DNA of 30,465 nucleotides, taken from a virus. Made by a program: the position numbers and the translations under genes. The stretch covers positions 1 to 30,465 of the IMG/VR virus record IMGVR_UViG_3300032046_002091, one strand, 5' to 3'. This document shows, one piece after another, positions 9,787-30,465 of the stretch (position 1 is its first letter; each line of letters begins with the position of its first letter). The notes below the pieces were generated by a model, which saw only the letters and a program-made list of their open reading frames with translations, had not been told where the DNA came from and did no database searches.

Positions 9787-10333
9787 TCTACTTGGTAAAA
9801 AGATTATATATCCGCCTGGGTATAAAGATCAAATTTTTACTCTTTGGTATTCTATGGGTAAACCTATTGCGAGAGTTCTTTATCTTAAAATACCAGTTTA
9901 TGAGGAATTTGGCACTAAACCGCCTATAGATACTATTCAGGATTGGACATGGAGTACAGAGTTCAAAGAGCGGGCGGCAATCCTTGATGAGCAGGTAATG
10001 GCTCAAATTAATCAGAAGATGGTGGCAGAGAAAGTAGAAATGCTAAATCGCCACGCCGTTATCGGTTCTAAGATGCAGGATATGGCAATGGCATATCTCA
10101 AAGAACATGATAAAGATTTGGGTGTAGGTTCATCTGTCAGACTTCTGGTAGCGGGAGTAGAGATTGAACGTAACAGTCGTGGCATCGCTACTACATTCGA
10201 GAAGTTTGATAAAATGAGTGATTCGCAACTAAACGCCGAAATTCAGAAAATTATTGAGCGTGCGCCTGTAGAATTGATGCCAGGTGAGAGCATAGATGCT
10301 GAATTTATTGAGGAAGATAGTGCCGATAATTAA
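9779..10333 (+). CDS. Putative terminase small subunit (184 aa)
   Basis: The product is a 184-residue protein whose N-terminus (PPGYKDQIFTLWYSMGKPIA, then RVLYLKIPVYEEFG) has the helix-turn-helix layout of TerS DNA-recognition domains. A central helical region (NQKMVAEKVEMLNRHAVIGS, then KMQDMAMAYLKEHD) would oligomerise. The C-terminus has KMSDSQLNAEIQKIIERAP, the 'tDeeL' type segment seen in many small terminases, and an acidic tail. It lies immediately upstream of TerL, where TerS is expected. TerS recognises the packaging site and hands DNA to the TerL motor. The start overlaps the HNH stop; the end overlaps the TerL start. Confidence 0.72.
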   Translation: MVDLLGKKIIYPPGYKDQIFTLWYSMGKPIARVLYLKIPVYEEFGTKPPIDTIQDWTWSTEFKERAAILDEQVMAQINQKMVAEKVEMLNRHAVIGSKMQDMAMAYLKEHDKDLGVGSSVRLLVAGVEIERNSRGIATTFEKFDKMSDSQLNAEIQKIIERAPVELMPGESIDAEFIEEDSADN

Positions 10334-15400: not shown

Positions 15401-16918
15401 ATGCCTTGGTCAGTTGGAGATGTTGATAAACATAATAAAGGTTTGTCTCCCAACCAGAAAAAACAATGGGTTGCCGTTGCTAATGATGCTTTAAAGCGTT
15501 GTGAGGCGAAGGGTGGCAAAGATTGTGATGCTCATGCTATTAGACAAGCTAATGCGGCAGTAGCAAAGTCTAACATCGTTGAGTTCTCTTTGACTATTCG
15601 TGCGGCACATTTTGATGAAGCAACACAGGAAATGCGCTGGAAAGCAGATGCAAGCGATATAGATAACGATACTTATAATGATAATATGACGTTTGAATTG
15701 TTTGGTGACTTTATTCAACGTATTGAAAGTAAAGAAAGACCACCAGAAGTATTTTGTAGTGAGTTTTGGTCGGGAGGTATGCCATATCTTTCTGTGTCAC
15801 ATTATGATGATTTGAATGGAGATGGTGTACCTGGTATTCCTGATGTAGTTTATATGGATGGTAAAATATTAAAAGCAAAGGGTAAATACTTTGATACTCC
15901 GTTAGGTAGGGCATGTTTCAAATCTGTATGTGAATCATTACATACTACTCCCGAAAAGCCTGTACGAATAAGTATTGCTTTTTATGATTATATGCACAAA
16001 CACAAATCTACTGGCACTATTTTTGAGCGAAAATCTTTGGATGATTCATGCAAAGAATGTTTACGAGAAGCGGTAGATAAGTTTTTAGATGGCAAGGAAT
16101 CGGATGGGAAAGAATATTTACGTGGTCATTTGATTCATCTTGCCCATACACGTGTGCCAGTAAATAAGCGCACAAACATGGAGGTAGATAGGTCTATGAC
16201 CACACAAAAAGAAGACGCCACATCCATTATTGGTGAAGAACTCGCTAAGGAATTGGATGAAAAAGAAAAGGCAATGATTGGCAAGAGTGAAACCCTTGAA
16301 AATACTAATAGTCTTGTTTTCAAGGCCGAAGAAGATAAATGTCCTAAATGTGGTAAGAAACTAGTAGATGGCAAATGCCCTGAATGTAGTAAGGAAGAAG
16401 TTGAAGAGGGTTGCGGCGATAAGAAGAAAAAGAAGTCCGATTACGATTTTGCTCCATTAGAATCCAAAGTTGACAAGATGTTATCTATTCTTACTGCGCC
16501 AGAAGAACCAAAACCTGCTCATGTTTTGGATGAATCTTTTAATCAATTCAAGAATGATTTTGATTCTGTTATGCTTTCTGATACTACAGTCGAAGAGAAA
16601 CTTCGCTCTCTGCAAGACCCCATTAATGCTGTAGGTAATACCGTCATTTCTGTGGTAAAGGCAGAATCAAAGCCAGTTACTCCTGAGAAAGTTGAATCAG
16701 ACAAACTGAATCAATTGACTGAACTTGTGGCTTCTTTAGCGCAAAGAATGGAATTGATTTCTACTCAACTAAGCAATCCTCAGGTAAAGCGTGAATCTGT
16801 GGTAACTACACCTGCTGTACCACAACGCAGAAACATTTCACTGCCGCCAGAATTGCTTGCCAAGAAAACTGAAAGCATTACACCGAAACTACATGATATT
16901 ATTATGAAAACAGTGTAG
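15401..16918 (+). CDS. ChaB-domain / prohead protease / zinc ribbon / scaffold fusion (505 aa)
   Basis: Domains in order: a ChaB-like segment (residues about 5-57, GLSPNQKKQWVAVANDALKR and AHAIRQANAAVAKS); a prohead serine protease-like domain (about 60-260) with a candidate catalytic His134 in LSVSHYDDLNGDG and Ser191 in PVRISIAFYDY; a zinc ribbon (CPKCGKK...KCPECSKE, about 314-332); then a helical, charged C-terminal part (about 350-505) with coiled-coil segments, as in scaffolds. Prohead proteases cleave the scaffold and the capsid delta domain after assembly. The position directly before the capsid gene, as in HK97-type phages, supports this. No separate scaffold gene is visible, so both roles may be in one chain. 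The promoter-proximal start is at 15401 after CAGGAGTAACAC. Confidence 0.78.
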   Translation: MPWSVGDVDKHNKGLSPNQKKQWVAVANDALKRCEAKGGKDCDAHAIRQANAAVAKSNIVEFSLTIRAAHFDEATQEMRWKADASDIDNDTYNDNMTFELFGDFIQRIESKERPPEVFCSEFWSGGMPYLSVSHYDDLNGDGVPGIPDVVYMDGKILKAKGKYFDTPLGRACFKSVCESLHTTPEKPVRISIAFYDYMHKHKSTGTIFERKSLDDSCKECLREAVDKFLDGKESDGKEYLRGHLIHLAHTRVPVNKRTNMEVDRSMTTQKEDATSIIGEELAKELDEKEKAMIGKSETLENTNSLVFKAEEDKCPKCGKKLVDGKCPECSKEEVEEGCGDKKKKKSDYDFAPLESKVDKMLSILTAPEEPKPAHVLDESFNQFKNDFDSVMLSDTTVEEKLRSLQDPINAVGNTVISVVKAESKPVTPEKVESDKLNQLTELVASLAQRMELISTQLSNPQVKRESVVTTPAVPQRRNISLPPELLAKKTESITPKLHDIIMKTV

Positions 16919-16925
16919 TAAAAAG

Positions 16926-16934
16926 TGATAAAAT
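16926..16934 (+). promoter_or_regulatory. Candidate extended -10 promoter for the capsid gene
   Basis: TGATAAAAT provides a TAAAAT -10 box (16929-16934) with upstream TG. No clear -35. It would give a leader of about 90 bases before the capsid ATG, containing a CGAAC-ATAG-GTTCG hairpin (16967-16980) and a repeated CATAGGT (16971, 16988). A separate strong message for the capsid gene is common in phages. Confidence 0.4.
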
Positions 16935-17028
16935 AGACATATAACGTCTGGTTAAGCCGTTTGCGTCGAACATAGGTTCGGTCAAGCATAGGTGTCGGAC
17001 AAGAGACTAAAAAATTTTGGAGGACACA

Positions 17029-18225
17029 ATGCCTGAACCCATTTTAAATTTAGGCGAAGATGCTGCCGTAACAAAAGCATTTATTCAGGGTGAAGTTCAG
17101 CGGATTGCTGACCCTGTATTGACTATTACAACTCCGCTAACGCCTCAGGATTTTACTGCACAATATCCTACTCCGCTCGATGTAACAGAAATTTTGGATA
17201 TGTGTGAAGAGTTAGGTGTTTGGCGGGCAATTCCCGAACAACGAACTCAGTTACATACTTATACCTGGCGGGAAATGACTAATCTTCAGTTCTCCGGCAC
17301 ACTTGGCGGACAGACAGATATTGCTTTCGCTGATGGTGCTTGTCCAGAACATTATGTTCATCAAGGTGCAAACAGTTCCGTAACCCTCAAGAATATTGGT
17401 GCTAGAAAAGTTCTCGGCGTTTCCGATATTATGCACTCTGCTGCTATTGCCGGTGCAAACTGGAATGGTATCAATACGCTCGTTGGGCCTAATGCCGCAT
17501 CTGCTGGACTTCCTGGTGGAGACCCCGTAGGGACATTCACACGTGAGCATGTAGCCAATCTCAAGGAAAAAGAAGTTCGTTTGGGCATGACTCTGGTGAT
17601 GAATGGTTGGGATCGCCTTCTAATTCAAGGTGACGCCGCCACTCGCGCTTTAGAGTTCAATGGTATCGAGAACTGGGCTTCCGGCACTTCTGCCGGTGCT
17701 TGTATGCACACGAACGACAACTCTGCTTCAGGTACTTTCTCAGCTCTTAGCTTTGATCGTTTCTTAGCAGAAAGTTGTGCTAAACCCACCCACTTGTTTG
17801 GACACCCTCAGGCTTTACAAGAAGTGATGGCTGCATATTTCCAGTTAGGTTTTGCTCAGTCCCAGACAATTAACTTTACTTCTGGAACCCGCCTCACCCC
17901 TGGATATAACTTTGCAGGACAGGTGAATACGGGTGTTGGTTTGCTGCAAGTCGTAGCGGACAACAATTTCCGTAGAACCACATCAAGTTCAACCACATTC
18001 CAAGCAGACATTTGGGCATTCCGAATGGTACATAACGGAGAACCGTTGGTGTACAAGATGACTCAAATTCCTTTGGGATTGACTGATCTAACCCCAGGTT
18101 GTACGGCAATCCAATTCCAGATTTGGGCTAAGACTGCTCTGGTAATTAAGGCTTGCTGTATGCACGGAAGGTACATTTCGCAATATACGGGAAGAGTGGT
18201 CTCAACGTGCACAGTCATAGGTTAG
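17029..18225 (+). CDS. Major capsid protein (HK97-fold type, 398 aa)
   Basis: The major capsid protein builds the icosahedral shell. The 398-residue product, with the start at 17029 after TTTTGGAGGACACA, has the features of a phage shell protein: an N-terminal extension, IPEQRTQLHTYTWREM (about 71-86), the long helix region TREHVANLKEKEVRLGMTLV (about 169-188), a Gly/Ala-rich variable centre, and a beta-rich C-terminus. Codon choice is biased to GC-ending codons (GCC, GGC, ACC, CTC), more than in its neighbours, as expected for the most expressed gene. It follows the protease/scaffold and precedes a hairpin terminator. The family resembles SU10/N4-type capsid proteins, but I cannot settle this by eye. 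Confidence 0.85.
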   Translation: MPEPILNLGEDAAVTKAFIQGEVQRIADPVLTITTPLTPQDFTAQYPTPLDVTEILDMCEELGVWRAIPEQRTQLHTYTWREMTNLQFSGTLGGQTDIAFADGACPEHYVHQGANSSVTLKNIGARKVLGVSDIMHSAAIAGANWNGINTLVGPNAASAGLPGGDPVGTFTREHVANLKEKEVRLGMTLVMNGWDRLLIQGDAATRALEFNGIENWASGTSAGACMHTNDNSASGTFSALSFDRFLAESCAKPTHLFGHPQALQEVMAAYFQLGFAQSQTINFTSGTRLTPGYNFAGQVNTGVGLLQVVADNNFRRTTSSSTTFQADIWAFRMVHNGEPLVYKMTQIPLGLTDLTPGCTAIQFQIWAKTALVIKACCMHGRYISQYTGRVVSTCTVIG

Positions 18226-18408: not shown

Positions 18409-18687
18409 ATGAATGAAAAACAGACATCAGATATGTATTTAGCCGCAACCTTGGTAGCTTATGGGGCAGAAATAGACACTGTAAATCGAGACGACATCAA
18501 GAGACAAATGTTCTTATTCAAAACCCTTCCTGTTGTTGTTTGGGTATTTTTAGATGATAAAGTAATCTCACAGAAAGTTTCCGCAATTCCCGAAATAAAA
18601 GCTCTAATGGTAAGCGAAAGATTGCTTTACCCACCCAATTTTGTCAATGCAATCAAATCTGTAAAATCTTATTTATATGCAGAGTAA
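18409..18687 (+). CDS. DUF5659-like small protein (92 aa)
   Basis: The product follows the pattern of DUF5659: TSDMYLAATLVAYGAEIDTV (about 6-25, 'TsdlylAaxLlaxGxxl'), a strand pair (VVVWVFLDD) and a C-terminal basic segment (PPNFVNAIKSVKSYLYAE). The family is common in phage genomes near capsid and tail-joining genes and has no known function. GAAAGGATAAAGACT precedes the ATG. The position after the capsid gene suggests a virion-related or DNA-related role, which is inference. Confidence 0.75.
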   Translation: MNEKQTSDMYLAATLVAYGAEIDTVNRDDIKRQMFLFKTLPVVVWVFLDDKVISQKVSAIPEIKALMVSERLLYPPNFVNAIKSVKSYLYAE

Positions 18688-18689: not shown

Positions 18690-18953
18690 ATGCCAGAGAC
18701 AAACGCTAATGGCGATGTAGCCATGAAATATATGCAACCCGCCGATAAATATGTTAGGGTAGGCGGAGAGATTCGTTATCGAGAATATATGTTCAAGGTT
18801 GGTGCTGCTGGTATCAGCATGGCATGGATAATTCCATCCGATGTTCCAGAAGTTTTGAAGATAATGGGTGGATGTTGTAATAGTCAAGCTCCCATGTTTC
18901 GTTATGCTAATGCGGGTGATGTTCGTATCTGGACAGGTGTGGCAGAGCGGTGA
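18690..18953 (+). CDS. Hypothetical protein with Gly-Gly-Cys-Cys motif (87 aa)
   Basis: An 87-residue protein with a middle section of beta strands (RVGGEIRYREYMFKVGAAGI) and the motif MGGCCNSQAPMFRYANAGDV near residues 59-78. Short phage proteins with CC-x-Q motifs near capsid genes are common, but I cannot name a family. It starts two bases after the previous stop and has no strong ribosome binding site, so coupling is likely. Its own stop codon supplies the TG of the next gene's promoter. Confidence 0.68.
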   Translation: MPETNANGDVAMKYMQPADKYVRVGGEIRYREYMFKVGAAGISMAWIIPSDVPEVLKIMGGCCNSQAPMFRYANAGDVRIWTGVAER

Positions 18954-18987: not shown

Positions 18988-19185
18988 ATGGACAAGTCAG
19001 TTGTGGTAGCATTGGTAGATAGTGTAATTTTAGTGTTGGTTTATGTTCTAAGTAAATATGTACCTGCTCCTTGGGTAGATGTGGCAAAGAATATTTTGAC
19101 CTACTTGCAACCTGTGATTGTGATATATATTTTGAGTTTGCTTGGAATTGAGGTTGTAGCAAAACTGGCGCAGGCTTTACAGTAA
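18988..19185 (+). CDS. Two-span membrane protein, possible holin (65 aa)
   Basis: A 65-residue protein with two hydrophobic segments, VVVALVDSVILVLVYVLSKY (about 5-24) and ILTYLQPVIVIYILSLLGIE (about 36-55), separated by a short polar loop (VPAPWVDVAKN). The size and two-span layout match class II/III holins, which time membrane permeabilisation at lysis. It has ACAGGAGAAAATAA before its ATG and its own strong promoter. No endolysin is adjacent, so the holin call is tentative. Confidence 0.6.
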   Translation: MDKSVVVALVDSVILVLVYVLSKYVPAPWVDVAKNILTYLQPVIVIYILSLLGIEVVAKLAQALQ

Positions 19186-19813: not shown

Positions 19814-20099
19814 GAGAGAGTGGCACGAAGTTTTTGTTTGCGAAACTTGTCGATTCAAGGTATTGCCAACGCTAATTAATGAAATTCCACCAACACCACA
19901 TGAACGTAAAGATATGTTTATTGGTACTTATATCCAGGCGCGAAAAGCTGGGTGGCGTATGTATGCTAAGTTGTGGTTCTGTCCCGAATGCGTTGCCGAT
20001 GGAAGTTATATAGAATATTGTATTGATAGAGAAATGGAAATACATCATTATTTTGGGTGGATGTCACGGGAAGAAATCAAAAAGGAATGGATGGAATGA
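19812..20099 (+). CDS. Small zinc-binding-type protein (95 aa)
   Basis: A 95-residue protein with two CxxC pairs, VCETCRFKV (about 9-17) and WFCPECVADG (about 55-64), as in a zinc ribbon, joined by a helical insertion (HERKDMFIGTYIQARKAG). The C-terminus is acidic and helical (GWMSREEIKKEWME). It may bind nucleic acid or protein. Its last codons overlap the RmlD-like start (ATGA), so it belongs to the same transcript as the glycan island. Confidence 0.7.
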   Translation: MREWHEVFVCETCRFKVLPTLINEIPPTPHERKDMFIGTYIQARKAGWRMYAKLWFCPECVADGSYIEYCIDREMEIHHYFGWMSREEIKKEWME

Positions 20100-20935
20100 T
20101 ACGAATTGCTGTTACTGGCCCAAACGGTAGATTGGGTTCTCAACTTGTATTGATGGGGTGTACGCCCTTAGAATGTGATATTACCAAACCGGAAGAGATT
20201 GAATTGGCTTTGGTAATGACTAAACCAGACGTGGTTATAAACTGTGCCGGATTTACTAACGTAGACGCCTGTGAAACGGATGAAGGATGGAAGAAAGCTA
20301 TTGCGGTAAATATGCACGGAATAGAGAAATTACGCAATGTATTTTCTGGTAGATTAATTCATATCAGCACAGACTATATCTTTGATGGTAAACGCGGCCC
20401 ATATTCAGAAAGCCACAAAGATACATCTCCGGTAAATTTATATGGAAGCACAAAACTAGGGGGCGAAATTGTACTTTTACACTCTATGAGTACAAATCCA
20501 ACTTGCATCGTGCGTACTACAGGGTTATTTGGTGGATTTGGGCATAAGTCAGATTTTGCAGATGCGGTTATCGAATATCTATCTGCCGGCAAAGAAATTT
20601 TAGTGTCAAATGAATTGATAGGCAATCAGACTTATGTTCCATTTCTGGCAGAGGCCTTATTGAAATTAGCAACTATGGAATGGACGCACAAAATAATTCA
20701 TATTGGAAGTTCCGACATTATTAGTCGATATGAGTTTGCGCTTCTAGTTGCTTCTGTATATGGATTGAATAAAGACCTCATTCATCCCTGTAATAATCGA
20801 GATATAATGGGATGGATAGCAGAACGACCAAAGAAGGGCGGACTAAAAACGATTTTGGCAAAGAAACTATGTTTACCTATCTATACTGTATGGGATGGTA
20901 TTCAACATTATAAGAATGATACGAGGAAGGCATGA
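20096..20935 (+). CDS. rmlD: dTDP-4-dehydrorhamnose reductase-like protein (RmlD family, 279 aa)
   Basis: RmlD reduces the 4-keto group of a dTDP-6-deoxy sugar to give dTDP-L-rhamnose, using NADPH. The sequence has the Rossmann motif GPNGRLG (8-14), INCAGFTNVDACE (48-60), the catalytic STDYIFDGKRGPYSE (91-105) and the Tyr-x-x-x-Lys pair in LYGSTK (Y116, K120). The length of 279 is normal. The start at 20096 overlaps the upstream gene by four bases and follows AAAAAGGAATGGATGGA. It could act on dTDP-rhamnose or on a CDP- or dTDP-linked 6-deoxysugar. It opens the glycan island. Confidence 0.87.
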   Translation: MIRIAVTGPNGRLGSQLVLMGCTPLECDITKPEEIELALVMTKPDVVINCAGFTNVDACETDEGWKKAIAVNMHGIEKLRNVFSGRLIHISTDYIFDGKRGPYSESHKDTSPVNLYGSTKLGGEIVLLHSMSTNPTCIVRTTGLFGGFGHKSDFADAVIEYLSAGKEILVSNELIGNQTYVPFLAEALLKLATMEWTHKIIHIGSSDIISRYEFALLVASVYGLNKDLIHPCNNRDIMGWIAERPKKGGLKTILAKKLCLPIYTVWDGIQHYKNDTRKA

Positions 20936-21156
20936 AGAAAATTAGGGATGGGAAATCGGGGGAAGTTACGGCGGAAATATTTGAAACTATGTTCCCTGAT
21001 AAGCCAGAAGTCTTGTTGATGGATTTCCTAAAAACGGGCAACTCAGACATATGGTGTGTAAAGAAGTTGAATGATTTGGATGTTGGAGTTATCCATATTA
21101 ATAGGGGATATGCACAAAAATTATTAGATGAGTTTAAAATTCTTAGAGGAAAGTAA
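20932..21156 (+). CDS. Hypothetical protein (74 aa)
   Basis: A 74-residue protein, MKKIRDGKSGEVTAEIFETM..., with a helical N-terminus and a C-terminal half of strand, turn and helix (LDVGVIHINRGYAQKLLDEF). The ATG overlaps the RmlD stop (ATGA). No family is recognised. It is charged and soluble. Confidence 0.62.
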   Translation: MKKIRDGKSGEVTAEIFETMFPDKPEVLLMDFLKTGNSDIWCVKKLNDLDVGVIHINRGYAQKLLDEFKILRGK

Positions 21157-21357
21157 ATGGGAATTAGAAGTGTTATATCTCATGTGGGCAAAAGCCTAAA
21201 GTTTGTTATTATTCAACTAGGCGATCATGATTATTATGATCCTGAGGCAGAACGCGAAGTTGTTCAAATGCATAAAACTGGAAGAAGTCCACATAATCTT
21301 GGATTTAGTGATAAGACAAATACAATATTTATTGGGGATAGAGATGATCCGAAATGA
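21157..21357 (+). CDS. Hypothetical protein (66 aa)
   Basis: A 66-residue protein, MGIRSVISHVGKSLKFVIIQ..., with hydrophobic strands followed by an acidic segment (LGDHDYYDPEAEREVVQMHK) and a polar C-terminus. It begins immediately after the previous stop and its stop overlaps the next gene (ATGA). AGAGGAAAGTAA precedes the ATG. Not recognised. Confidence 0.62.
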   Translation: MGIRSVISHVGKSLKFVIIQLGDHDYYDPEAEREVVQMHKTGRSPHNLGFSDKTNTIFIGDRDDPK

Positions 21358-22097
21358 TTAGCCTTATTATGCCTTTTTATGGGCGTTACGAACTAGTACA
21401 CAAACGCCTTCAAGAACTCTGGCAATATATTCCAAGAACAGATTTCGAGATTATAGTTATCAATAATGCCAGTCCTGGCGATAGGGATTATGAAGGTAAT
21501 ATAGCGTGGTGGCAGAACAAAGTAGATAATCCCCATAAGATTAGGTATCATGCGAACAAGGAAAATCTTGGATTTGGAGGTGGGATGAACCAGGGGGCTA
21601 AACATGCTAATGGAGATATTTTAATATTTTTTTCTAATGATGTAATTGTAAGTGGCGATTTTGTGACACAATTAGTCACATTGATGCAGAAAGATAACAA
21701 AATGTTATTGGGCGGGGAAATGATTGATTGGCCTGCTGGATGGAATGAGTTTGATATTGATAATAAACACATTCATATTGCTTATTGTAATGGCTGGCTA
21801 CTCTCTACGACTAAACAAGCGTGGGAACAATCTGATGGATTTGATCCTCTATATGGAAAGTTTGATTATGAGGACGTTGATATTAGTACGAGGTTCACTG
21901 AGATGGGGTATAATTTAGTTGCTTTGAATAGTCCATATCTACACCACATGGGTGGAGCAACTATAAATTCTATGGGAATAGATAGAACAAAGTATACGAG
22001 AGAGCATCGGGAATTATATATCAATAAATGGAAAGGGAAACTACTTCAAATCTATCAGATACAAGAGGAACAAAGATATGTCAACAGAATTAGTTAG
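21354..22097 (+). CDS. Family 2 glycosyltransferase (247 aa)
   Basis: A GT-A fold family 2 glycosyltransferase, which transfers a sugar from a nucleotide donor with inversion. Seen: the N-terminal strand SLIMPFYGRYELV, donor-site INNASPGDRDYEG (35-47), NLGFGGGMNQGAKHANGDIL (71-90), the metal-binding acidic motif at FFSNDVIV (92-99) and the catalytic-acceptor region FDYEDVDISTRF (170-181). The C-terminus lacks a membrane anchor. It overlaps the preceding and following genes, as the whole island does. Confidence 0.88.
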   Translation: MISLIMPFYGRYELVHKRLQELWQYIPRTDFEIIVINNASPGDRDYEGNIAWWQNKVDNPHKIRYHANKENLGFGGGMNQGAKHANGDILIFFSNDVIVSGDFVTQLVTLMQKDNKMLLGGEMIDWPAGWNEFDIDNKHIHIAYCNGWLLSTTKQAWEQSDGFDPLYGKFDYEDVDISTRFTEMGYNLVALNSPYLHHMGGATINSMGIDRTKYTREHRELYINKWKGKLLQIYQIQEEQRYVNRIS

Positions 22098-22356
22098 CCA
22101 TGATAGTCAAGGAACACAAATTAGTGTTCTAATTGAGAAAGTAAATTCCTTGGGGGATTCTATTAAAACCTTAGTGGAGGACATTAAAAAGATACAAGAA
22201 GTAACATATGGAAATGGTCAATTAGGACTAGTAGGAAAAGTTACTACAATAGAAAAATGGGTAGAAAGCCAAATTTGGTTCCAACGTTTAATTATTGGAG
22301 CTATTGTAGGACAAATAATTCTGATTTTTGTGTATTTGTTCAAAGTGATTCCATAA
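22078..22356 (+). CDS. Coiled-coil, single-span membrane protein (92 aa)
   Basis: A coiled-coil segment (about 15-45, GTQISVLIEKVNSLGDSIKT, then LVEDIKKIQEV) is followed by a connector and one transmembrane helix (RLIIGAIVGQIILIFVYLF, about 70-88). The architecture of a coiled coil ending in a C-terminal anchor is that of XhlA-like and spanin-like lysis helpers in phages; I cannot distinguish these. AGAGGAACAAAGAT precedes the ATG, which overlaps the GT2 gene by 20 bases. A lysis-type protein would be unusual within a sugar cluster. Confidence 0.65.
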   Translation: MSTELVSHDSQGTQISVLIEKVNSLGDSIKTLVEDIKKIQEVTYGNGQLGLVGKVTTIEKWVESQIWFQRLIIGAIVGQIILIFVYLFKVIP

Positions 22357-22382
22357 AATAAGAAAATAGAAGAAAAATAGAT

Positions 22383-23162
22383 ATGAAAGTAGTTATCTTA
22401 GCGGGTGGTTTAGGAACCAGACTTCAAGAAGAAACCACATCAAAACCGAAACCAATGGTCGAAATTGGGGGACATCCAATTTTGTGGCATATTATGAAGA
22501 TATATTCATGGTATGGTTTTAATGAGTTTGTAATTGGCTTGGGATATAAAGGGGAAATTATTAAAGATTATTTTGTAAATTATTATCACCATCAAGCTAA
22601 TCTAAAGATAAATACCTGTACAGGAATAATTGAAGAGCAAATCTTTTCGGAGTTATCTAAGGATAACTGGATTGTGCATTTACTTGATACCGGCTTGGAT
22701 ACACAGACTGGTGGACGCGTGAAGAGACTTATGGAATATATAGGTGATGAACCAATCATGCTAACTTATGGTGATGGAGTAGCAAATATCAATATTCAAG
22801 AATTGCTTCAATTCCACAAATCTCATGGAAAGATTGCTACTATTACGGCTGTTAGACCGCCAGCCAGATTTGGTAAACTGATTATAAATAATGATAAGTT
22901 AGTTACTGATTTTGAAGAAAAACGACCGATGGAAGCTGGATGGATAAACGGTGGATTTTTTGTTTTTAATCCTGAAATCATTAAATATATTGATGGTGAT
23001 GCTACACCACTTGAGAGAGGGCCATTAGATAATCTTGCTTATGATAATCAACTAATGGCTTATACCTATGAAGGATTTTGGCACTGCATGGATACAATGC
23101 GAGATGTAATTGATTTAGAATCGCTTTGGAAATCTGATAATGCGCCATGGAAAATCTGGTAA
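22383..23162 (+). CDS. rfbF: Glucose-1-phosphate cytidylyltransferase (259 aa)
   Basis: RfbF makes CDP-glucose from CTP and glucose-1-phosphate, the first step to CDP-linked 6-deoxy and dideoxy sugars. Signature elements are the nucleotidyltransferase N-terminus VVILAGGLGTRLQEETTSKP (3-22), KPMVEIGGHPILWHIMKIYS (23-42), the activated-sugar region LTYGDGVANI (metal Asp), TAVRPPARFGKL, EEKRPMEAGWINGGFFVFNP and FWHCMDTMRDV near the C-terminus. The length is the family norm (about 257). AAAAATAGAT precedes the ATG. The specific set EEKP/MEAGWINGGFFV fits RfbF better than RmlA. Confidence 0.93.
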   Translation: MKVVILAGGLGTRLQEETTSKPKPMVEIGGHPILWHIMKIYSWYGFNEFVIGLGYKGEIIKDYFVNYYHHQANLKINTCTGIIEEQIFSELSKDNWIVHLLDTGLDTQTGGRVKRLMEYIGDEPIMLTYGDGVANINIQELLQFHKSHGKIATITAVRPPARFGKLIINNDKLVTDFEEKRPMEAGWINGGFFVFNPEIIKYIDGDATPLERGPLDNLAYDNQLMAYTYEGFWHCMDTMRDVIDLESLWKSDNAPWKIW

Positions 23163-23175
23163 AGGATATTATAAA

Positions 23176-23625
23176 ATGATTGATGGTGTATGGATTAAAT
23201 CCCTAAAACAAATTCCAGATGAACGCGGTAAAGTGATGTGTATGCTTCGTAGAGATGATCCCTGGTTTGATAAATTTGGGGAGATTTATTTTTCCATTAT
23301 TTATCCCATGGTAATCAAGGGATGGCATCTTCATCTCAAGATGGCTTTGAATTACGCATGTATATCTGGAATGGTTAAACTTGTGCTTTATGATGAGCGA
23401 GAAAATTCTCCTACGAGATATGATTTCCAAGAAATATTCATTGGCGACAGTGATTATTGTTTGGTTCATATTCCTCCAAATATTTGGAATGGCTTTAAAG
23501 GAATTGGTGTTCGATCTGCTATCGTTGCAAATTGTTCCGATATTCCTTATGATCCAGATGAGATTATCAGGCTTGATCCATTTGATCCGAAAATACCTTA
23601 TGATTGGAATCTAAAACATAGATAA
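23176..23625 (+). CDS. RmlC-like cupin sugar epimerase (149 aa)
   Basis: A single cupin domain resembling dTDP-4-dehydrorhamnose 3,5-epimerase, though shorter (RmlC is about 180). Seen: the opening WIKSLKQIPDERGKVMCMLR, the catalytic-His region VIKGWHLHLKMALNYACISG, KLVLYDERENSPT, then VHIPPNIWNGFKGIGVRSAI and the typical end DPFDPKIPYDW. The start is the ATG at 23176 after AAAGGATATTATAAA, and it overlaps nothing. It could epimerise a CDP- or dTDP-4-keto sugar; RmlC-type and WxcM-type cupins cannot be separated by eye. Its pairing with RfbF and the RmlD-like reductase implies deoxysugar synthesis. Confidence 0.78.
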   Translation: MIDGVWIKSLKQIPDERGKVMCMLRRDDPWFDKFGEIYFSIIYPMVIKGWHLHLKMALNYACISGMVKLVLYDERENSPTRYDFQEIFIGDSDYCLVHIPPNIWNGFKGIGVRSAIVANCSDIPYDPDEIIRLDPFDPKIPYDWNLKHR

Positions 23626-23627
23626 AT

Positions 23628-24545
23628 ATGTCAAAACTAAAGATAGTAATTTCTGCTTTAATTTATCCATTTACAATGATGCACTTCTTTTGGATGGCTT
23701 TTGAGCGCAGAGAAGATGTAGAATTATTTGTTCTTGGGCCATATACAGATAACTATATTCCCTGGAATATGGGTATGAGACTTCCTAGGAAATATGTCAA
23801 AGTTCCCGATTTTGCCCTTCCACAAAGTACATCCCAATTCATGCCTCCATACTCTATAGTAAAATCTGTTATCCCTTGGAAGCCAGATTTATGGATACAG
23901 ATTAATGCCGGATTTCACTTTTCCACAAAACCAGATGCAAAGATTGTGGCACACATTCAAACAGACCCGCATGTGCTGAAAGATTTCTACAAAGTTCCCA
24001 TTGAATATTCTGATTTCAACTTTTGTATGCAGGATTTTTATCGAGATGGGAATGAAATTTTATTGCCTTATGCTTATGACCCTGAGATACATTTCCATGA
24101 AGATAGAGAGAAAATCTATGATGCTTGTCTAATTGGTCTACATTATGAGCATCGAAACGCACTTGTGAAGCGTTTGAGAGATAGAGGGCTAAATGTTTAT
24201 TATTCAATAGGCGAAGTTTATTCCGAGTACAGACAAAAGTACAATGAAAGTAAAGTTGCTTTAAGTTGGTCATCTAAATATGATCTTCCCGCACGTTGCT
24301 GGGAATCTTGGGGCATGGAATTGCCTTTAATAACTAATCGTGTTCCTGATTTGAAATTATTCGCTAATGAAAGTGAACATTACTTAGGATTTGATACTGT
24401 GGATGAAGCAGAACAACAAGTAATGACGTTACTCAATGATAAAAAGTTCCGTGATAATTTAGCCGAAAGAGGACATGAAAATGCTAAGGCAGAAACTTAC
24501 GATAAACGCGCACAGACAATATTAGAAACGGTAGGATTAGTATGA
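23628..24545 (+). CDS. CgeB-like glycosyltransferase (305 aa)
   Basis: A GT-B type transferase. The C-terminal half has the signature of the 'glycosyl transferases group 1' variants with CgeB/DUF3880 partners: SKVALSWSSKYDLPARCWES, PLITNRVPDLKLFANESEHY, FRDNLAERGHENAKAETYDK. The N-terminal half has a Pro/Trp-rich stretch (YIPWNMGMRLPRKY) and KIVAHIQTDPHV, a donor-domain strand-turn. It begins two bases after the epimerase stop and its stop overlaps the next start (ATGA). The acceptor is unknown; it would add a sugar to a glycan. Confidence 0.8.
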   Translation: MSKLKIVISALIYPFTMMHFFWMAFERREDVELFVLGPYTDNYIPWNMGMRLPRKYVKVPDFALPQSTSQFMPPYSIVKSVIPWKPDLWIQINAGFHFSTKPDAKIVAHIQTDPHVLKDFYKVPIEYSDFNFCMQDFYRDGNEILLPYAYDPEIHFHEDREKIYDACLIGLHYEHRNALVKRLRDRGLNVYYSIGEVYSEYRQKYNESKVALSWSSKYDLPARCWESWGMELPLITNRVPDLKLFANESEHYLGFDTVDEAEQQVMTLLNDKKFRDNLAERGHENAKAETYDKRAQTILETVGLV

Positions 24546-25321
24546 CTGATCTAAGTATTATTCTTTCTGTAAAAGATCGACCAATTGCGTTACGCAATAC
24601 TTTACAATCCTGGTCTAATTTAGAATGTGACAATTATGAGTTTATTGTTATAGACGATGGTAGTAATGAAGATAATAAAATTGCACATTTTGTAGCAGGT
24701 ATGTCTATCAATTTTCCCTCTTTGAGTTATATTCGATTAGAGAATACTGGATATAGAATACCTAATATTGCCTGGAACGTTGGACTAGAAGAATCCAAAG
24801 GTGATTTTCTTATCTTCGCTATGGGCGATATTATTATCTCTCGCAAGGATATTTGGAAGCATATACAAGATTGCTATGTTGGAAATCGAGTTGGGTTACT
24901 AACATACTTTTTATCCCCCGTAGCCACAGAATATTTATCTATAGTGGAATGGGAAAATGATCCAACGAAACTTGAAACTTCACCAGGATTTTGGAATTGG
25001 CGATCTGAAGAAGGCGAAACTAATCGGCATCGAATACAAAACATAGAACATCATGTAGCACGTACTGCATATGTATTTGGATGTGAACGGAAACGATGGG
25101 AATGGTTTGGTGGACTAAGGAATAAAGATGATTCCCAACTATTGACGGATAATGATTTGTTTTATCGTGAACAATGTTTAGGGATACCAGCAACACCTAT
25201 TCCCGTGGTGAGGGGATACCATCAATGGCATAACAAAATCCTAATTTCAAGTGGTTACGGTTATAATTACAAAACAGAAGCGCAGGCACGGTTATTGGAA
25301 GAAGCGGAGAAAACCAGATGA
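24542..25321 (+). CDS. Family 2 glycosyltransferase (259 aa)
   Basis: A family 2 transferase: DLSIILSVKDRPIALRNTLQ (3-22), the donor-site FIVIDDGSNEDN (about 34-45), NIAWNVGLEESKGDFLIFAM and the acidic motif MGDIIISR (about 94-101). The rest includes FGCERKRWEWFGGLRNKDDS and ends in a charged helix (TEAQARLLEEAEKTR). It is coupled by ATGA overlaps on both sides. It is not the same type as 21354, so it is likely to make a different linkage. Confidence 0.85.
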   Translation: MTDLSIILSVKDRPIALRNTLQSWSNLECDNYEFIVIDDGSNEDNKIAHFVAGMSINFPSLSYIRLENTGYRIPNIAWNVGLEESKGDFLIFAMGDIIISRKDIWKHIQDCYVGNRVGLLTYFLSPVATEYLSIVEWENDPTKLETSPGFWNWRSEEGETNRHRIQNIEHHVARTAYVFGCERKRWEWFGGLRNKDDSQLLTDNDLFYREQCLGIPATPIPVVRGYHQWHNKILISSGYGYNYKTEAQARLLEEAEKTR

Positions 25322-25734
25322 AGAGTAGTAATAATGGACACAAGAAACAATCAAAAACCTATGCCAGTTTTGGAATTATTCATCACTATAATAGTCCTAA
25401 TAGTGCTATTACTATAGACGGCAAAGAAGTACATAGAGAGGAAAAAATTTGGTATGCAGAATATGATGATGAAGGTTATCCGATTAATGGAAGATTTATT
25501 GCTTGCTGTCCTTATGACAATCATTTTGTGTATATTGATCCAATGTGGAAAAAAATTGTCGGTCGATGGTTTGCCCTCTGCACTTGCGGTAGCGTTGCGG
25601 TGATTGTTGGATATAACGCATATAAACAAGAAGCGTCTCCATCTACAGAAGGTACAAATAAAGGTGAAATGTTAGTTTGTAAATGGCATATGGATAATGG
25701 AATACACCAAACTGGTGGTAGGAGATGGGAATGA
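25318..25734 (+). CDS. Hypothetical protein with Cys/His clusters (138 aa)
   Basis: A 138-residue protein. Cysteines and histidines are clustered: FIACCPYDNHF (about 61-71), ALCTCGSVAVIVGYNAYKQE (about 86-105) and MLVCKWHMDNGIHQTGG (about 118-134). This would form a two-site zinc fold. I recall similar phage hypotheticals with CTCGSxAV and C..H...G.H endings, but no named family. It overlaps the upstream gene (ATGA) and the methyltransferase start. Confidence 0.65.
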   Translation: MKSSNNGHKKQSKTYASFGIIHHYNSPNSAITIDGKEVHREEKIWYAEYDDEGYPINGRFIACCPYDNHFVYIDPMWKKIVGRWFALCTCGSVAVIVGYNAYKQEASPSTEGTNKGEMLVCKWHMDNGIHQTGGRRWE

Positions 25735-26321
25735 GAAATTATTTTCATATAGATAGATATTTGAATGAATTAGAGAAAGATGTTTATTATCAGCCTCAGA
25801 AAGGTGACGACCATCTTATTTGGGCTAAGAATATCATTGACCAGTGGGTATCTCAATTAGGCGTAAAAGATGTTTTGGATGTTGGATGTGGAGTAGGTTT
25901 CTGTCAATTGATGTTTGAATCATATGACATAAAATATAAAGGCATTACCTTGGATTCAGATGATTACAAAGACGCCAAGGAAGAAAACAGAAATGTTTAT
26001 ATGCAAGATTATAATTTTATCAATGCCAATGCGAATACTTATGATTTGATATTTGCTCGACATGCGTTGGAGCATAGCCCATTTCCTGTAATAAGTCTTA
26101 TGGAATGGCATAGAGTATCAAAGCAACATCTTGTTATTGTTAATCCTAATCCAGATTATTGGGGATGGGCGGGTAGAAATCATTATGCCGTAGCTAATAT
26201 GACACAACTTAAATTCTATTTGGAACGTTCTGGATGGCAAATAACTAGAGATCAAATAGACAAATACGAAATCTGGATACATGCAATAAAAGTAGAAAGG
26301 AAAATACCTTATTATGAATAG
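25731..26321 (+). CDS. Class I SAM-dependent methyltransferase (196 aa)
   Basis: A small-molecule or sugar methyltransferase of the Methyltransf_11 type. SAM motif I is VLDVGCGVGFCQ (48-59), the acidic residue of motif II is in GITLDSDDY (about 72-80), and motif post-II is YDLIFARHALEHSPFPV (about 106-122). The context of sugar genes suggests O-methylation of a glycan. I chose the ATG at 25731, which has AGGAG six bases upstream and overlaps the upstream TGA; a longer start exists at 25725. Confidence 0.85.
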   Translation: MRNYFHIDRYLNELEKDVYYQPQKGDDHLIWAKNIIDQWVSQLGVKDVLDVGCGVGFCQLMFESYDIKYKGITLDSDDYKDAKEENRNVYMQDYNFINANANTYDLIFARHALEHSPFPVISLMEWHRVSKQHLVIVNPNPDYWGWAGRNHYAVANMTQLKFYLERSGWQITRDQIDKYEIWIHAIKVERKIPYYE

Positions 26322-26490
26322 TCTAAAAGAATATCATGATGAATGGGTAAGAGATTTGGTCATTATTCTGAAGGATAAAGTTAGGGGCGGTAGATTATTT
26401 GGTATGCCTATTAATATAGATAATCTCGAAGAAGTTCTTTGTGCTGTTTATTTACTAGAAGTAGTAAGAAAAGGATGCTCATGGGAATAA
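26314..26490 (+). CDS. Small hypothetical protein (58 aa)
   Basis: A 58-residue gene filling the gap between the methyltransferase and the next transferase, overlapping both. It begins MNSLKEYHDEWVRDLVIILK and ends EVVRKGCSWE. The N-terminal helix, a Gly turn and a second helix (NLEEVLCAVYLLEVVRK) give a helical hairpin. AGAAAGGAAAATACCTTATT precedes the ATG, with somewhat long spacing. Function unknown. Confidence 0.55.
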   Translation: MNSLKEYHDEWVRDLVIILKDKVRGGRLFGMPINIDNLEEVLCAVYLLEVVRKGCSWE

Positions 26491-27515
26491 TTATAGACAT
26501 TCTCACATCGGATGGCAGTCCAACCTTGGTATGTCCAGAATGTTTATATGGAGATGAATACAGATTCGGAGTTGGAGGAAGTGAATTATTCCTTTTTACT
26601 CTCTGTGAGGCTTGGGCAAATCAAGGGCATAAAGTACGTTTATATAATTCCCCCCATGAAAACTATAAAACTGTTGAATGGCTTGAACAATTATCTATAG
26701 AATCATTCAATCCATGTGATAACAGAAATGTAATAATTAATTTCAGAACTCCTAGTGAAGCATCTATTAATGCAAATGGATTGCGGATTTGGTTAACGAC
26801 AGATCAATATTCTCATGGTGATTACAAAGCATTTGCGCCTCATATGGATAAGATTGTATGTATCTCTCAACATCATGTAGATTTCTTCAAATCTAGATAT
26901 GGAATTGAAAATGCTTTCTTTATTGATATACCAATTAGAGAGAAGGATTTCATTGACAGTGAAAAGATTAAGAATAGACTTATTTTTACTTCCATCCCTG
27001 ATAGAGGATTACGAAATCTACTTGCCATTTATCCAGATTTGTTACGAGAAATCCCCGATATATCCTTAGTAATTACATCGGACTATAGATTGTGGGGGGC
27101 ATCTCCACAGAATGAATCATATCGAATAGAATGGATAAAATATATGGATACTGTTCAGTTTCGTGGCGCATTACCACGTAGAAAATATGTTGAAGAACTA
27201 TGCAAAGCAAGTCTTATGGTGTACCCGTGCAATTATCCTGAGCTTTTTTGCATCTCTGTAGCAGAGGCAATGTGGGCAGGTGTGTATCCAATTACGTCAT
27301 CTGCTGGCGCATTATCTACAACGAATATGGGAATGATTATTGATGTAAACCCAGACACTTCTGAGGGAAGGAAATTGTATATAGACAAGACTGTTGAGAT
27401 GTGTAATAATCAATGGAAACTTGCAATTCAGAGAAAACTTGTGCAAGAAAAAGCAAGAGAGCGATTATCTTTACAAAGAATATTACAAGAATGGGATGAA
27501 AAAGTATTTAAATGA
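26481..27515 (+). CDS. GT-B glycosyltransferase, family 4-like (344 aa)
   Basis: A retaining GT-B glycosyltransferase of the group 1/family 4 type. Seen: GVGGSELFLFTLCEAWANQG (about 30-49), the N-domain Gly loop that binds the acceptor; RGLRNLLAIYPDLLREIPDI, the donor-side interdomain start; VQFRGALPRRKYVEELCKAS, and the phosphate-binding helix YPELFCISVAEAMWAGVYPI with its two glutamates (E-x7-E). I chose the ATG at 26481, which has AAAGGATGCTC upstream; the frame opens earlier with no site. It would extend a glycan chain. Confidence 0.88.
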   Translation: MGIIIDILTSDGSPTLVCPECLYGDEYRFGVGGSELFLFTLCEAWANQGHKVRLYNSPHENYKTVEWLEQLSIESFNPCDNRNVIINFRTPSEASINANGLRIWLTTDQYSHGDYKAFAPHMDKIVCISQHHVDFFKSRYGIENAFFIDIPIREKDFIDSEKIKNRLIFTSIPDRGLRNLLAIYPDLLREIPDISLVITSDYRLWGASPQNESYRIEWIKYMDTVQFRGALPRRKYVEELCKASLMVYPCNYPELFCISVAEAMWAGVYPITSSAGALSTTNMGMIIDVNPDTSEGRKLYIDKTVEMCNNQWKLAIQRKLVQEKARERLSLQRILQEWDEKVFK

Positions 27516-28708
27516 CAGAAGAAATAAAACCCCTTAACTTAATTTGGATTTCTGATTTTGATATAATCGGCAGTGGGTACTTGAATCTTTCTGTACCATT
27601 ATGTACAGGATTAGCAAACAAAGGTCATAATATTAAAGCGATTGGAATTGGGTATAAAGGGCAAGAACATTTTTATCCTTTCTCTATTATTCCTTGTACC
27701 AGTATTCAAGAATCTCTTATGATGTTTCAAAATATTTATAATATGTGGCACTATGATGCTTTGATTGTGGCGATGGATTTGCATGTTCATAACCCCTTTC
27801 TACAGATACTACAAAACAAGAAACCTTTTAGTTATGTAGGCATTTCCCCTATCGAAGCTCCTCCTCTTTGTATGACTTGGGCAATGGTGCTTAGTCAAGC
27901 AGATAAGGCATTTATTATTTCTGAATTTGGGGCAGAAGAAGCCCGCAGAGTTGGTGTAATAGAAGCAGAACATTTACAGATTGGTATAGATACGGAAACA
28001 TGGCAACCAGCAACATTAGAGGAAAAGAAAACATTTCGTTCTGCTATGCTTGGAATTGAGGATGATACTTTTGTTGTTTTGACTATTGCGGACAATCAGG
28101 AACGTAAAAACCTTGCAGCGGCGATGGAAATATTCAAAGAATTTTCTAAAGATAAGAAAGCCTTATATGTTTTAGTGACCAGAGAAAATAGCCCTGTAGG
28201 TTGGCGATTGAGGGATTATGCACAAGAATTAGGTATTACGAATAAATTTATGTTATTCGAGAGAGGAATGCCATTCAAGGAACTTTGGATGATGTATGCT
28301 TGTGCAGATTGTTTTCTTCTAACTTCAAAATCGGAAGGACTCGGAATGTGTTTGCTAGAATCTATGGCGATGAAAATTCCTACAATTGCCACAGATTGTA
28401 CAGGCATGGCCGAACTATTAGCAAATGATAGAGGAATATTAATTCCCTCAGAATATACTCATCGCGATCCGTTCGGAAATGGTACACGTTGGTGGATAGA
28501 TAAAAAACTAGCGGTAGAAGCCTTACAAAATGTATATGATAAAACAATCTATCCTTCTATTAATGTAACTTACTCTGATATTGAAGATGCGCGTAAATAT
28601 GTAGAGGACAGAAATTGGGAACAATCCATATTGAGATTAGAAGAAGTATTATTAAAACTAAGGAGTGAACGTGAACCTATTAAAGATAGTGGTAACAGTT
28701 CGAACTAA
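27512..28708 (+). CDS. GT-B glycosyltransferase, family 4 (398 aa)
   Basis: A family 4 transferase with clear motifs: GIDTETWQPATLEEKKTFRS (N-domain end), ADNQERKNLAAAMEIFKEFS (start of C-domain), LLTSKSEGLGMCLLESMAMK (the E-x7-E phosphate-binding segment) and PTIATDCTGMAELLANDRGI. The length of 398 is normal for a single-domain GT4. The ATG overlaps the previous stop (ATGA). It is the longest transferase of the island. The mannosyl- or other sugar specificity cannot be told from motifs. Confidence 0.9.
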   Translation: MTEEIKPLNLIWISDFDIIGSGYLNLSVPLCTGLANKGHNIKAIGIGYKGQEHFYPFSIIPCTSIQESLMMFQNIYNMWHYDALIVAMDLHVHNPFLQILQNKKPFSYVGISPIEAPPLCMTWAMVLSQADKAFIISEFGAEEARRVGVIEAEHLQIGIDTETWQPATLEEKKTFRSAMLGIEDDTFVVLTIADNQERKNLAAAMEIFKEFSKDKKALYVLVTRENSPVGWRLRDYAQELGITNKFMLFERGMPFKELWMMYACADCFLLTSKSEGLGMCLLESMAMKIPTIATDCTGMAELLANDRGILIPSEYTHRDPFGNGTRWWIDKKLAVEALQNVYDKTIYPSINVTYSDIEDARKYVEDRNWEQSILRLEEVLLKLRSEREPIKDSGNSSN

Positions 28709-29372
28709 GGACGAGGAAATAAATATCGGTAAATTCTGTGCCTCCTATCAATGGGCAGATGAAATTGTTATCGCCGACGGTGGAAGTACAGATGGGACAA
28801 TAGACATTATTCGTACATTTCCCAATACTAAACTATATCACTTTCCCGAAAAAGTGTGGTCAAGAGATAAGGCAGTATGGGGTAATCCCATTGACCGGCA
28901 CATAAACTTTTTATTTGAGCGGGCAAGATTTCATGAAGCTGATTGGATTATCTTTGATGATTGTGACTGCGTGCCAAATATGTATCTCAAGCGAGATGGG
29001 CGCAAACTTTTGGAAGGGTGTAAAGATGAGTTGGTTTTAGTCAATCGTATTTATATTTATGGTAAAGATAAATATTTTGAAGGTTGGACAAAGCCCGATG
29101 GAACATTTACTCCATCTTTATGGGCATGGAAAGGTACTGCACCTGTTCATGCTAATCCTATAGGGGATTGGAAGTTTGAGATGAATTTACATCCCGAAGT
29201 AAATCATTCTCATAATCTTTGGCCTCCATATGCCCTTCTACATTATTTTTATCAAAGCGATGAATATATGCAGAAGAAATTAGAATATTATCGGCATGAA
29301 ACGCCTGGTACAAATGATCCAAAGAACGTTGGTGGAAGAATATTACCTCTACCAGAATGGGGGATTGAATGA
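28671..29372 (+). CDS. Family 2 glycosyltransferase (233 aa)
   Basis: A family 2 enzyme: KIVVTVRTKDEEINIGKFCA, the donor-site ADGGSTDGTIDII (35-47), and the metal motif in FDDCDCVPN (about 95-103). The remainder includes WSRDKAVWGNPIDRHINFLF and a Trp-rich segment (WAWKGTAPVHAN). A GTG start at 28671 sits five bases after AGGAG and overlaps the previous gene by 38 bases; the earlier GTG at 28665 is too close to the site. Its stop overlaps the next ATG. Confidence 0.84.
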   Translation: MNLLKIVVTVRTKDEEINIGKFCASYQWADEIVIADGGSTDGTIDIIRTFPNTKLYHFPEKVWSRDKAVWGNPIDRHINFLFERARFHEADWIIFDDCDCVPNMYLKRDGRKLLEGCKDELVLVNRIYIYGKDKYFEGWTKPDGTFTPSLWAWKGTAPVHANPIGDWKFEMNLHPEVNHSHNLWPPYALLHYFYQSDEYMQKKLEYYRHETPGTNDPKNVGGRILPLPEWGIE

Positions 29373-29590
29373 ATAGGCAAGAATATAAATTTATTGATGC
29401 GACGCCAGACGAAAATTATCCATTACGAATATTAAAAGCATATCGCAAAGATTGCGATTTTATTTGGTCATCTTCATCATCGGAGATTAAAGAGGACAGC
29501 CCACTTATAAAAGCAATGAATGATGCACAACATAAACGTGCCGAAGTTTTGGATAAAGCGATAAGGATATTAGAAAATGAGCCATCCTAA
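29369..29590 (+). CDS. Small hypothetical protein (73 aa)
   Basis: A 73-residue protein, MNRQEYKFIDATPDENYPLR..., with a polar Ser-rich middle (FIWSSSSSEIKEDS) and a helical C-terminus (KAMNDAQHKRAEVLDKAIRI). It is coupled to the genes on both sides by overlaps (ATGA before; 14 bases after). Not recognised. Confidence 0.62.
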   Translation: MNRQEYKFIDATPDENYPLRILKAYRKDCDFIWSSSSSEIKEDSPLIKAMNDAQHKRAEVLDKAIRILENEPS

Positions 29591-30465
29591 TGATCCTTTT
29601 GCTAATATACGAGCAGAAGTACGTTTAGAAGATTTACCAAAATGTGATGATAGTTTACCTATTAACTTATCAATAATGATGAGTACTTGCTATAGATATT
29701 CTCAACTACAACGTTCTCTTGAATGTTTAGCTAGACAAGATTGGAAAGAGTTCGAAGTTCTAATTTGTGATAATGGTGATAGTACAGACCTCACATCCAT
29801 CTTCCAGCAGTTTGAACCATACCTTAGAATTAAAACAACTCGTAGGGAAATTGTTGGGTTTAGTGTAGACCCGACCGGCGCATTTAGGACTTTGTTCCCT
29901 ATAGCGTCTGGTGAATATTGGGCAATTATGCAACCTGAGTTGATGCTTTATCCCGAAGTGTGTAGAACATTATACGAAGGTCATCGAAAAGAGTTACCTT
30001 CTAATATTGTTTTATACAATCCCAGGATTGGGGTATCAGAACAATTAATCAAATTTGATGAGATAAATAATCGACAAACTTGGGTAACAATCAAACCATT
30101 CCATCTTAGTCCTGATATGATGAGAATAGTAGATCATTATGATTGGCATACAAATTTAGATAATCTAAAAAATATGCCCAATTTTTGGAATACAAATTAT
30201 GGGCTATCTTATAAACCTAATTCTTATTGGGCAACATTTATTTATTTTCCTTTTTGGTTCTGTGCATCTGGACATAAAGATGCCGGTATATTTAGAGATA
30301 TGCCAACCTTTAGAGGTCATGCGATGATCGACTTCTATACAATGGGTTATAGGCGGTTTTATAATTATATAGATGTAATAGTACAAGAACCAAGAGCTTT
30401 TCATCAAGATCATTTTCGTCAAGCCACAGGTGTACCAGGAGAGTTTAATGACTTTACTACGTTCC
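29577..30465 (+). CDS. GT2-like glycosyltransferase, 3' end beyond window (at least 296 aa)
   Basis: A frame that runs off the right edge with no stop. The ATG at 29577 overlaps the upstream gene by 14 bases. Residues 29-120 look like a GT2 core: INLSIMMSTCYRYSQLQRSL, then EVLICDNGDSTDLTS (60-74) for the donor site, GAFRTLFPIASGEYWAIMQP (101-120). The position where most GT2 enzymes carry a DxD is IMQPELML here. The C-terminal part has aromatic clusters (WATFIYFPFWFCAS). It may be an inactive or metal-independent transferase, or a different GT-A relative. Incomplete at the right edge. Confidence 0.72.
   Translation, partial: MSHPNDPFANIRAEVRLEDLPKCDDSLPINLSIMMSTCYRYSQLQRSLECLARQDWKEFEVLICDNGDSTDLTSIFQQFEPYLRIKTTRREIVGFSVDPTGAFRTLFPIASGEYWAIMQPELMLYPEVCRTLYEGHRKELPSNIVLYNPRIGVSEQLIKFDEINNRQTWVTIKPFHLSPDMMRIVDHYDWHTNLDNLKNMPNFWNTNYGLSYKPNSYWATFIYFPFWFCASGHKDAGIFRDMPTFRGHAMIDFYTMGYRRFYNYIDVIVQEPRAFHQDHFRQATGVPGEFNDFTTF

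Follow-up and report, generated by a model that had tools for sequence, protein, structure and literature searches.

Virus-encoded glycosylation and phage glycan islands are already known, and they provide the precedents for the locus described here. In the mycobacteriophages Che8 (gp110), Corndog (gp38) and Myrna, transferases glycosylate the capsid and tail tube, according to Freeman et al. 2023 as relayed in PMC12363180, PMC12619734 and PMC11256854. Chlorovirus and mimivirus glycosylation yields O-methylated terminal sugars and is independent of host secretory glycosylation (PMC4691112), and pelagimyophages hold islands of glycosyltransferase (GT) and sugar genes in a hypervariable structural region, which their authors read as modifying the host O-chain (PMC7029224). 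Here we consider an island at positions 20096-30465 of IMG/VR virus record IMGVR_UViG_3300032046_002091, the whole of which (30465 bases) is referred to as the window. It combines seven glycosyltransferases (four GT2, two GT4 and one CgeB-like) with RfbF, an RmlD-like reductase, an RmlC-like cupin, an S-adenosylmethionine (SAM) methyltransferase and interspersed small unknown genes. We propose that it may be a virion-glycosylation module, placing its glycan on the virion; this is the most likely of the readings weighed below because of its position, lineage-wide conservation, soluble enzymes, and mycobacteriophage and giant-virus precedent, and we would give it about an even chance of being right.

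The island is a core component of an entire lineage of uncultured tailed phages. Searching IMG/VR with the major capsid protein (MCP) as a single sequence gave 10 loci, and with an MCP profile 40, on contigs of 5-113 kb; a CgeB profile gave 29 virus loci, most of which also hold the MCP family or other island genes. After clustering and profiling of the open reading frames (ORFs), gene maps of 18 records revealed a common order: TerL, portal, c3, a ChaB-type protein, MCP, c12, c5, a short-chain dehydrogenase/reductase (SDR), GT2a, CgeB and c9, then variable cassettes, followed by GT4a, GT4b, a closing GT2 and c20, the gene that precedes the neck and tail genes. Twelve distinct records run from the MCP to c20 (G001-G005, G009, G010, G012-G014, G017, to which L084 corresponds, and G022); GT2a, CgeB, GT4a, GT4b and the closing GT2 are present in the same order in 12/12, and the first SDR (SDR1) in 9/12. 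In G009, relatives of neck1, the tail terminator and the major tail protein were recognised. The novelty lies in this conserved transferase order, combined with slots for cassettes and with exchange of alleles. An earlier note on this DNA had suggested comparing related virus contigs, and the shared place and order answer that suggestion; its remark that a phage rarely carries such a set does not hold, because the island is core to an entire virus lineage and islands of GT and sugar genes have been described in pelagimyophages (PMC7029224).

Between the conserved blocks, RfbF, RfbG-like, RfbH, cupin and methyltransferase genes behave as interchangeable cassettes: RfbF with a cupin in the window, RfbF-SDR-cupin in G001, G004 and G022, and RfbH in G003, G009, G012-G014 and others. 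The island of G009, the nearest relative, additionally holds an RNA ligase and the only sulfotransferase cassette (L121:5787-6458, minus strand; PF00685, 3.5e-13). A possible counterexample is provided by L078 and L089, which match each other up to 12.7 kb and carry the MCP with no island; by eye, from the sequences only, TerL- and portal-like ORFs lie just downstream in L089 (11369-21154).

Could the island be a chimeric assembly, or a host operon acquired by chance? The window is a single metagenomic contig, and assembly can also create allele mosaics, but the arrangement is repeated in records from many metagenomes, and the shared synteny already contradicts such an origin. Nor is this a stray host operon, because the MCP searches found about 40 related virus loci. 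The reading frames are intact and under purifying selection, with ratios of non-synonymous to synonymous substitution (dN/dS) of 0.04-0.26 in island genes where dS is measurable. The earlier note had named the presence of the cluster in host chromosomes as the finding that would tell against a phage island; scans of 84,980 bacterial and archaeal genomes (genome_contigs) with the MCP profile and a narrower CgeB alignment, using short patterns that can miss relatives, found none of either. Taken together, this makes a chimera or chance acquisition very improbable. INPHARED, searched with the MCP (as a single sequence) and two transferases, returned no match, as did a portal search of viral_contigs, and GT4b showed no detectable similarity to phage records save one weak match. 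GH25 endolysins and relatives of RecA, PolA and DnaB suggest bacterial hosts.

The comparison with described systems is instructive. Like the mycobacteriophages, this lineage encodes its own transferases; as those phages are presented in the accounts cited above, however, phage structural proteins are proven acceptors and one or a few transferases are involved, whereas here a structural protein is only the presumed acceptor, and about seven transferases are accompanied by sugar-nucleotide synthesis and a methyltransferase at a constant location between the capsid and neck genes. With chloroviruses and mimiviruses (PBCV-1 Vp54 glycan; PMC4691112) it shares virus-encoded deoxysugar-nucleotide synthesis and several transferases, but those are eukaryotic giant viruses with guanosine and uridine diphosphate sugars and scattered genes, whilst here tailed phages hold cytidine diphosphate (CDP)-sugar enzymes in one syntenic island. 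Pelagimyophages are T4-like myophages whose non-syntenic island is mixed with tail fibre genes (PMC7029224), in contrast to the ordered, conserved frame of this separate lineage.

In its sugar-nucleotide genes the lineage also resembles the Salmonella-type rfbFGH O-antigen genes for CDP-3,6-dideoxyhexose. The window's RfbF and the RfbH of its relatives both score over their equivalog cut-offs, RfbH doing so in 11/23 records; unlike in Salmonella, no Wzx or initiating transferase was found (Wzy was not searched by family), and the RfbG-like SDRs match TIGR02622 yet stay under its cut-off. RfbH relatives occur in cyanophages too, and in one record of this lineage an intein interrupts the gene (L075:17215-19656; 600.9 bits in two stretches, with the intein splicing region between). 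From RfbH in the relatives and the RfbG-like SDRs, we infer that the lineage makes CDP-6-deoxy or dideoxy sugars. RfbF would make CDP-glucose; a 4,6-dehydratase, for which some relatives have the viral RfbG-like enzyme and which may here be supplied by the host or lie beyond the contig end, would convert this to a 4-keto-6-deoxy sugar, and the cupin and RmlD-like reductase would complete a 6-deoxyhexose. Over its full length, RfbF can be aligned with a solved structure of the Salmonella-type enzyme (1tzf, E 1.5e-84). The reductase has dTDP-4-dehydrorhamnose reductases as its closest solved structures, with Y129 and K133 invariant in the family alignment, and the cupin matches the 'dTDP sugar isomerase' 3ejk (2.5e-33). 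RmlD-like and RmlC-like are nevertheless the proper names, because both score under their equivalog cut-offs (TIGR01214, 154.8 against 224.05 bits, leaving only the PF04321 superfamily; TIGR01221, 19.5 against 155.75 bits). The methyltransferase is probably a sugar O-methyltransferase, a substrate that we infer.

How would such a glycan reach its acceptor? Virus-encoded transferases adjoin structural genes throughout this frame. We picture the island as making up the right-hand side of the late structural cluster, with its glycan destined for the virion: soluble GT2, GT4 and CgeB-like enzymes, working in the cytoplasm, may attach sugars successively to a structural protein of the phage, and the methyltransferase may cap or decorate the product. 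By a simple hydropathy count, the island enzymes are soluble rather than polytopic, and the only protein with at least six membrane segments among 12 long contigs is an ABC (ATP-binding cassette) permease in G003. Wzx (PF01943), Bac_transf (PF02397) and WecA-type (PF00953) proteins were each found in 0/23 records with positive controls, Wzy and ABC exporters not being searched by family. The missing flippase and initiating enzymes favour transfer onto a protein, but do not prove it.

The same absence bears on the possibility that the enzymes remodel the host surface, acting during infection on lipid-linked or lipopolysaccharide glycans by way of the host flippase, polymerase and ligase, either to block superinfection or to release progeny from receptor debris. 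That no membrane glycan enzymes were found in the 23 records speaks against this, as does the lineage-fixed place in the late structural cluster, which would act late if the aim were to keep competitors out. The genes by which phages typically convert serotype (gtrABC) encode membrane proteins and are located elsewhere. On the other hand, the lack of membrane enzymes is compatible with the use of host lipid carriers, because peripheral transferases can work on these. RfbF, RfbG and RfbH are classical enzymes of O-antigen sugar synthesis, exchange of island alleles would also suit phage-phage competition at the cell surface, and similar GT islands of pelagimyophages, as well as those of viruses that infect methane-cycling archaea, have been read in this way (PMC7029224, PMC9723712). 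We regard host-surface remodelling as the chief alternative, a possible, if rather unlikely, explanation.

Glycosylation could also be confined to tail fibres or a released fibre or adhesin, leaving out the capsid and tail tube. In chloroviruses and mimiviruses, fibres are among the virion proteins that become glycosylated (PMC4691112), and the ends of G001 hold collagen-like and fibre genes; however, the island adjoins the capsid gene and sits upstream of the neck genes, away from fibre genes, and on this positional evidence we find a fibre-only role improbable. Similarly improbable, and if anything slightly more so, is that the transferases attach sugars to modified bases in the phage DNA. 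Phage transferases that glycosylate DNA are known (Pyle et al. 2024, as cited in PMC12619734), and the window has a DNA methyltransferase gene between TerL and portal. Against this, the thymidylate synthase/dCMP hydroxymethylase family (PF00303) occurs in only 1/23 records and Tet/JBP (PF12851) in 0/23, the latter a weak result as its control was silent, and seven transferases with deoxysugar enzymes in a late structural cluster would be an odd fit. Among the functions that the earlier note had put forward, the best supported is that of building a methylated deoxysugar glycan on the virion, whilst DNA modification is disfavoured by the rarity of PF00303 and the late structural operon.

Several points weigh against virion glycosylation. 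The acceptor and the glycan are conjectural. Of the RfbF-RfbG-RfbH pathway the window has RfbF: its sequenced part, on a truncated contig (G000), gave no RfbG or RfbH match, and in the absence of a dehydratase the sequence as it stands encodes an incomplete pathway. O-antigen clusters, too, normally contain soluble peripheral transferases. The MCP is identified by a modest profile match (8/11 family members match the major head protein family phrog_212, best 4.5e-6) and synteny, and its AlphaFold model failed, being discarded at a predicted local distance difference test (pLDDT) score of 29.9. Finally, distances in GT2a and the methyltransferase fail to track those of the MCP; those in SDR1, CgeB, c9, GT4b and the closing GT2 do track them (Spearman 0.39-0.50, Mantel p about 0.002), which counts in favour of the virion reading.

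Part of the island appears to be exchanged between close relatives. In three records with near-identical surroundings, alleles of the reductase-GT2-CgeB-Zn-protein block are 79.2-88.3% identical, with 500-base windows down to 73%. L115 and L116, the records of L068 and L071, differ at 351 of 19126 columns, 340 of these in 250-base bins 9250-10750 (GT2a-CgeB) and the other 11 scattered over bins 6500 (9), 7000 (1) and 8000 (1). L070 and L071 differ at 665 of 20136 columns, with 636 in bins 14250-17000 (SDR1-GT2a-CgeB-c9), 26 near 13250 and single ones at 3000, 3250 and 11750. Exchange is not limited to the island, because L070 and L071 differ near 13.2 kb and L068 differs from both near TerL as well (78-94%); identity between L068 and L069 is 100% across 21179 bases. 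A second junction, at the island start, is seen between L072 and L073, which agree to about 13.8 kb and then fall to 60-70% from c5 on; past it, L072 matches L068 almost throughout. We take the low-identity block as a sign of allele exchange. Because frames are intact in records that come from different metagenomes, the variants are probably real, though some assembly mosaicism is conceivable. Cryoconite phage pan-genomes (PMC7468147) likewise contain near-identical genomes with short replaced blocks, the difference being that one replaced block here is that of the glycan island. Swapping it would alter the glycan type, like a serotype switch. It is tempting to go further and suggest that for this lineage a virion glycan is as much a core part of the structure as its proteins are, with the module fixed between capsid and neck, its transferase and reductase alleles swapped among viruses that are otherwise near-identical, and CDP-deoxysugar 'serotypes' as the outcome, an idea that we hold only tentatively and with more doubt than belief.

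If virion glycosylation is indeed the function, these uncultured phages would carry a self-sufficient glycan coat module among their structural genes, and allele exchange would be the phage counterpart of serotype switching. The lineage offers a defined, conserved gene set for asking what purpose phage glycans serve in natural settings, which lack antibodies. At least one auxiliary-gene survey discards contigs with islands of transferases and nucleotide-sugar genes as suspect (PMC11360552), which would drop lineages like this one.

The genes reported by the earlier note were all found in place by family matches (Table 1): RfbF, the reductase, the cupin, the methyltransferase and seven transferases, which fall into three types. 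Its central claim of a phage-borne glycan assembly island combining sugar-nucleotide synthesis with varied transferases is upheld; that the contig is viral is seen from the TerL, portal and major-head-protein relatives upstream, on a record that itself comes from IMG/VR. The island is one coupled plus-strand operon, its last transferase cut short. That nearly all genes are joined by ATGA was a slight overstatement: the coupling is real, but exact 4-nucleotide overlaps occur at six junctions only (20932, 21354, 24542, 25318, 27512 and 29369), with most of the rest abutting or overlapping further and one 26-nucleotide gap.

Table 1. Genes of the glycan island and of the structural region upstream of it in the window.
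Feature	Position	Strand	Evidence and remarks
Terminase large subunit (TerL)	10296..11822	+	phrog_979 3.3e-32; context, outside island
Portal protein	13280..14800	+	phrog_11117 3.6e-8; relatives 46-56% identical; context
ChaB-type N-terminus, probable prohead protease/scaffold	15401..16918	+	family c1 in 38 records; function suggested by position; context
Major capsid protein (MCP)	17017..18225	+	left border of island interval; relatives 52-65% identical
c12, conserved small protein	18409..18687	+	MCP-island interval; in 14 records
c5 homologue, conserved small Cys-rich protein	18690..18953	+	MCP-island interval; tblastn 28-44% in relatives
Small hydrophobic (putative holin-like) protein	18988..19185	+	sequence
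RmlD-like SDR reductase	20096..20935	+	PF04321 1e-43; GxxGxxG and YxxxK retained
74-aa unknown	20932..21156	+	homologue beside SDR in nearest relative (L090, 45%)
66-aa unknown	21157..21357	+	no homologue found
GT2a, first transferase of conserved frame	21354..22097	+	PF00535 1.7e-19; 12/12 MCP-to-neck records
92-aa coiled coil, C-terminal membrane segment, XhlA-like	22078..22356	+	PF10779 2.2e-4, below cut-off
RfbF, glucose-1-phosphate cytidylyltransferase	22383..23162	+	TIGR02623 equivalog 354.6 bits, cut-off 300.25
RmlC-like cupin, nucleoside diphosphate (NDP)-4-keto-6-deoxysugar epimerase/isomerase family	23140..23625	+	PF00908 2.6e-10; likely start ATG 23176
CgeB-like glycosyltransferase (GT-B type), conserved frame	23628..24545	+	PF13524 9.6e-15
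GT2c	24542..25321	+	PF00535 6.4e-9
c9, conserved small protein, C-x-C...C...H	25318..25734	+	always after CgeB
SAM-dependent methyltransferase	25725..26321	+	PF13489 1.1e-8, PF08241 2.4e-8
58-aa unknown, overlapping methyltransferase and first GT4 on either side	26314..26490	+	additional to earlier gene list
GT4a, conserved frame	26439..27515	+	PF00534 2.9e-9; 12/12; likely start ATG 26475
GT4b, conserved frame	27512..28708	+	PF00534 4e-18; E275/E283 at >=90% in family
GT2b with DxD (D99, D101)	28665..29372	+	PF00535 2.6e-5
73-aa unknown	29369..29590	+	weak Pfam match only
GT2d, cut by contig end	29577..30464	+	PF00535 2.7e-7

Some of these genes deserve a further word. The reductase ORF opens at GTG 20057, the ATG at 20096 being the likelier start. 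The CgeB-like transferase shares 34-54% identity across its 29 virus loci, and its profile found no match among PDB sequences. In c9, C88, C90, C121 and H130 are invariant in 14 sequences and likely form a zinc site; its AlphaFold model (pLDDT 73.8) had no fold match in the PDB. An MQPE motif replaces DxD in GT2d, as is common to its family in the alignment, and the XhlA-like ORF is probably not a sugar gene. Upstream, one member of family c1 matches ChaB (PF06150, 2e-11), and small membrane proteins occupy the position equivalent to the holin-like ORF in G001, G009, L075 and L082.

An Rfam search gave no matches, and promoter and terminator scans gave counts no different from shuffles. A tRNA-Gln (TTG) lies in the early region of the window (8260-8332, minus strand), and an HNH/NUMOD-like ORF recognised by eye (11823-12425, minus strand), probably a homing endonuclease, stands between TerL and the DNA methyltransferase. 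In G003, an ABC sugar permease (PF02653) and a periplasmic binding protein (PF13407) lie between replication and tail-side genes (L043:4132-6823), preceded by a fragment that by eye resembles glutamyl-tRNA synthetase (GluRS). Lastly, a 1572-aa ORF sits beside the MCP in L066 (11251-15969), which the near-identical L067 (11251-15721) has as two ORFs of 480 and 1005 aa with a 165-nucleotide gap.

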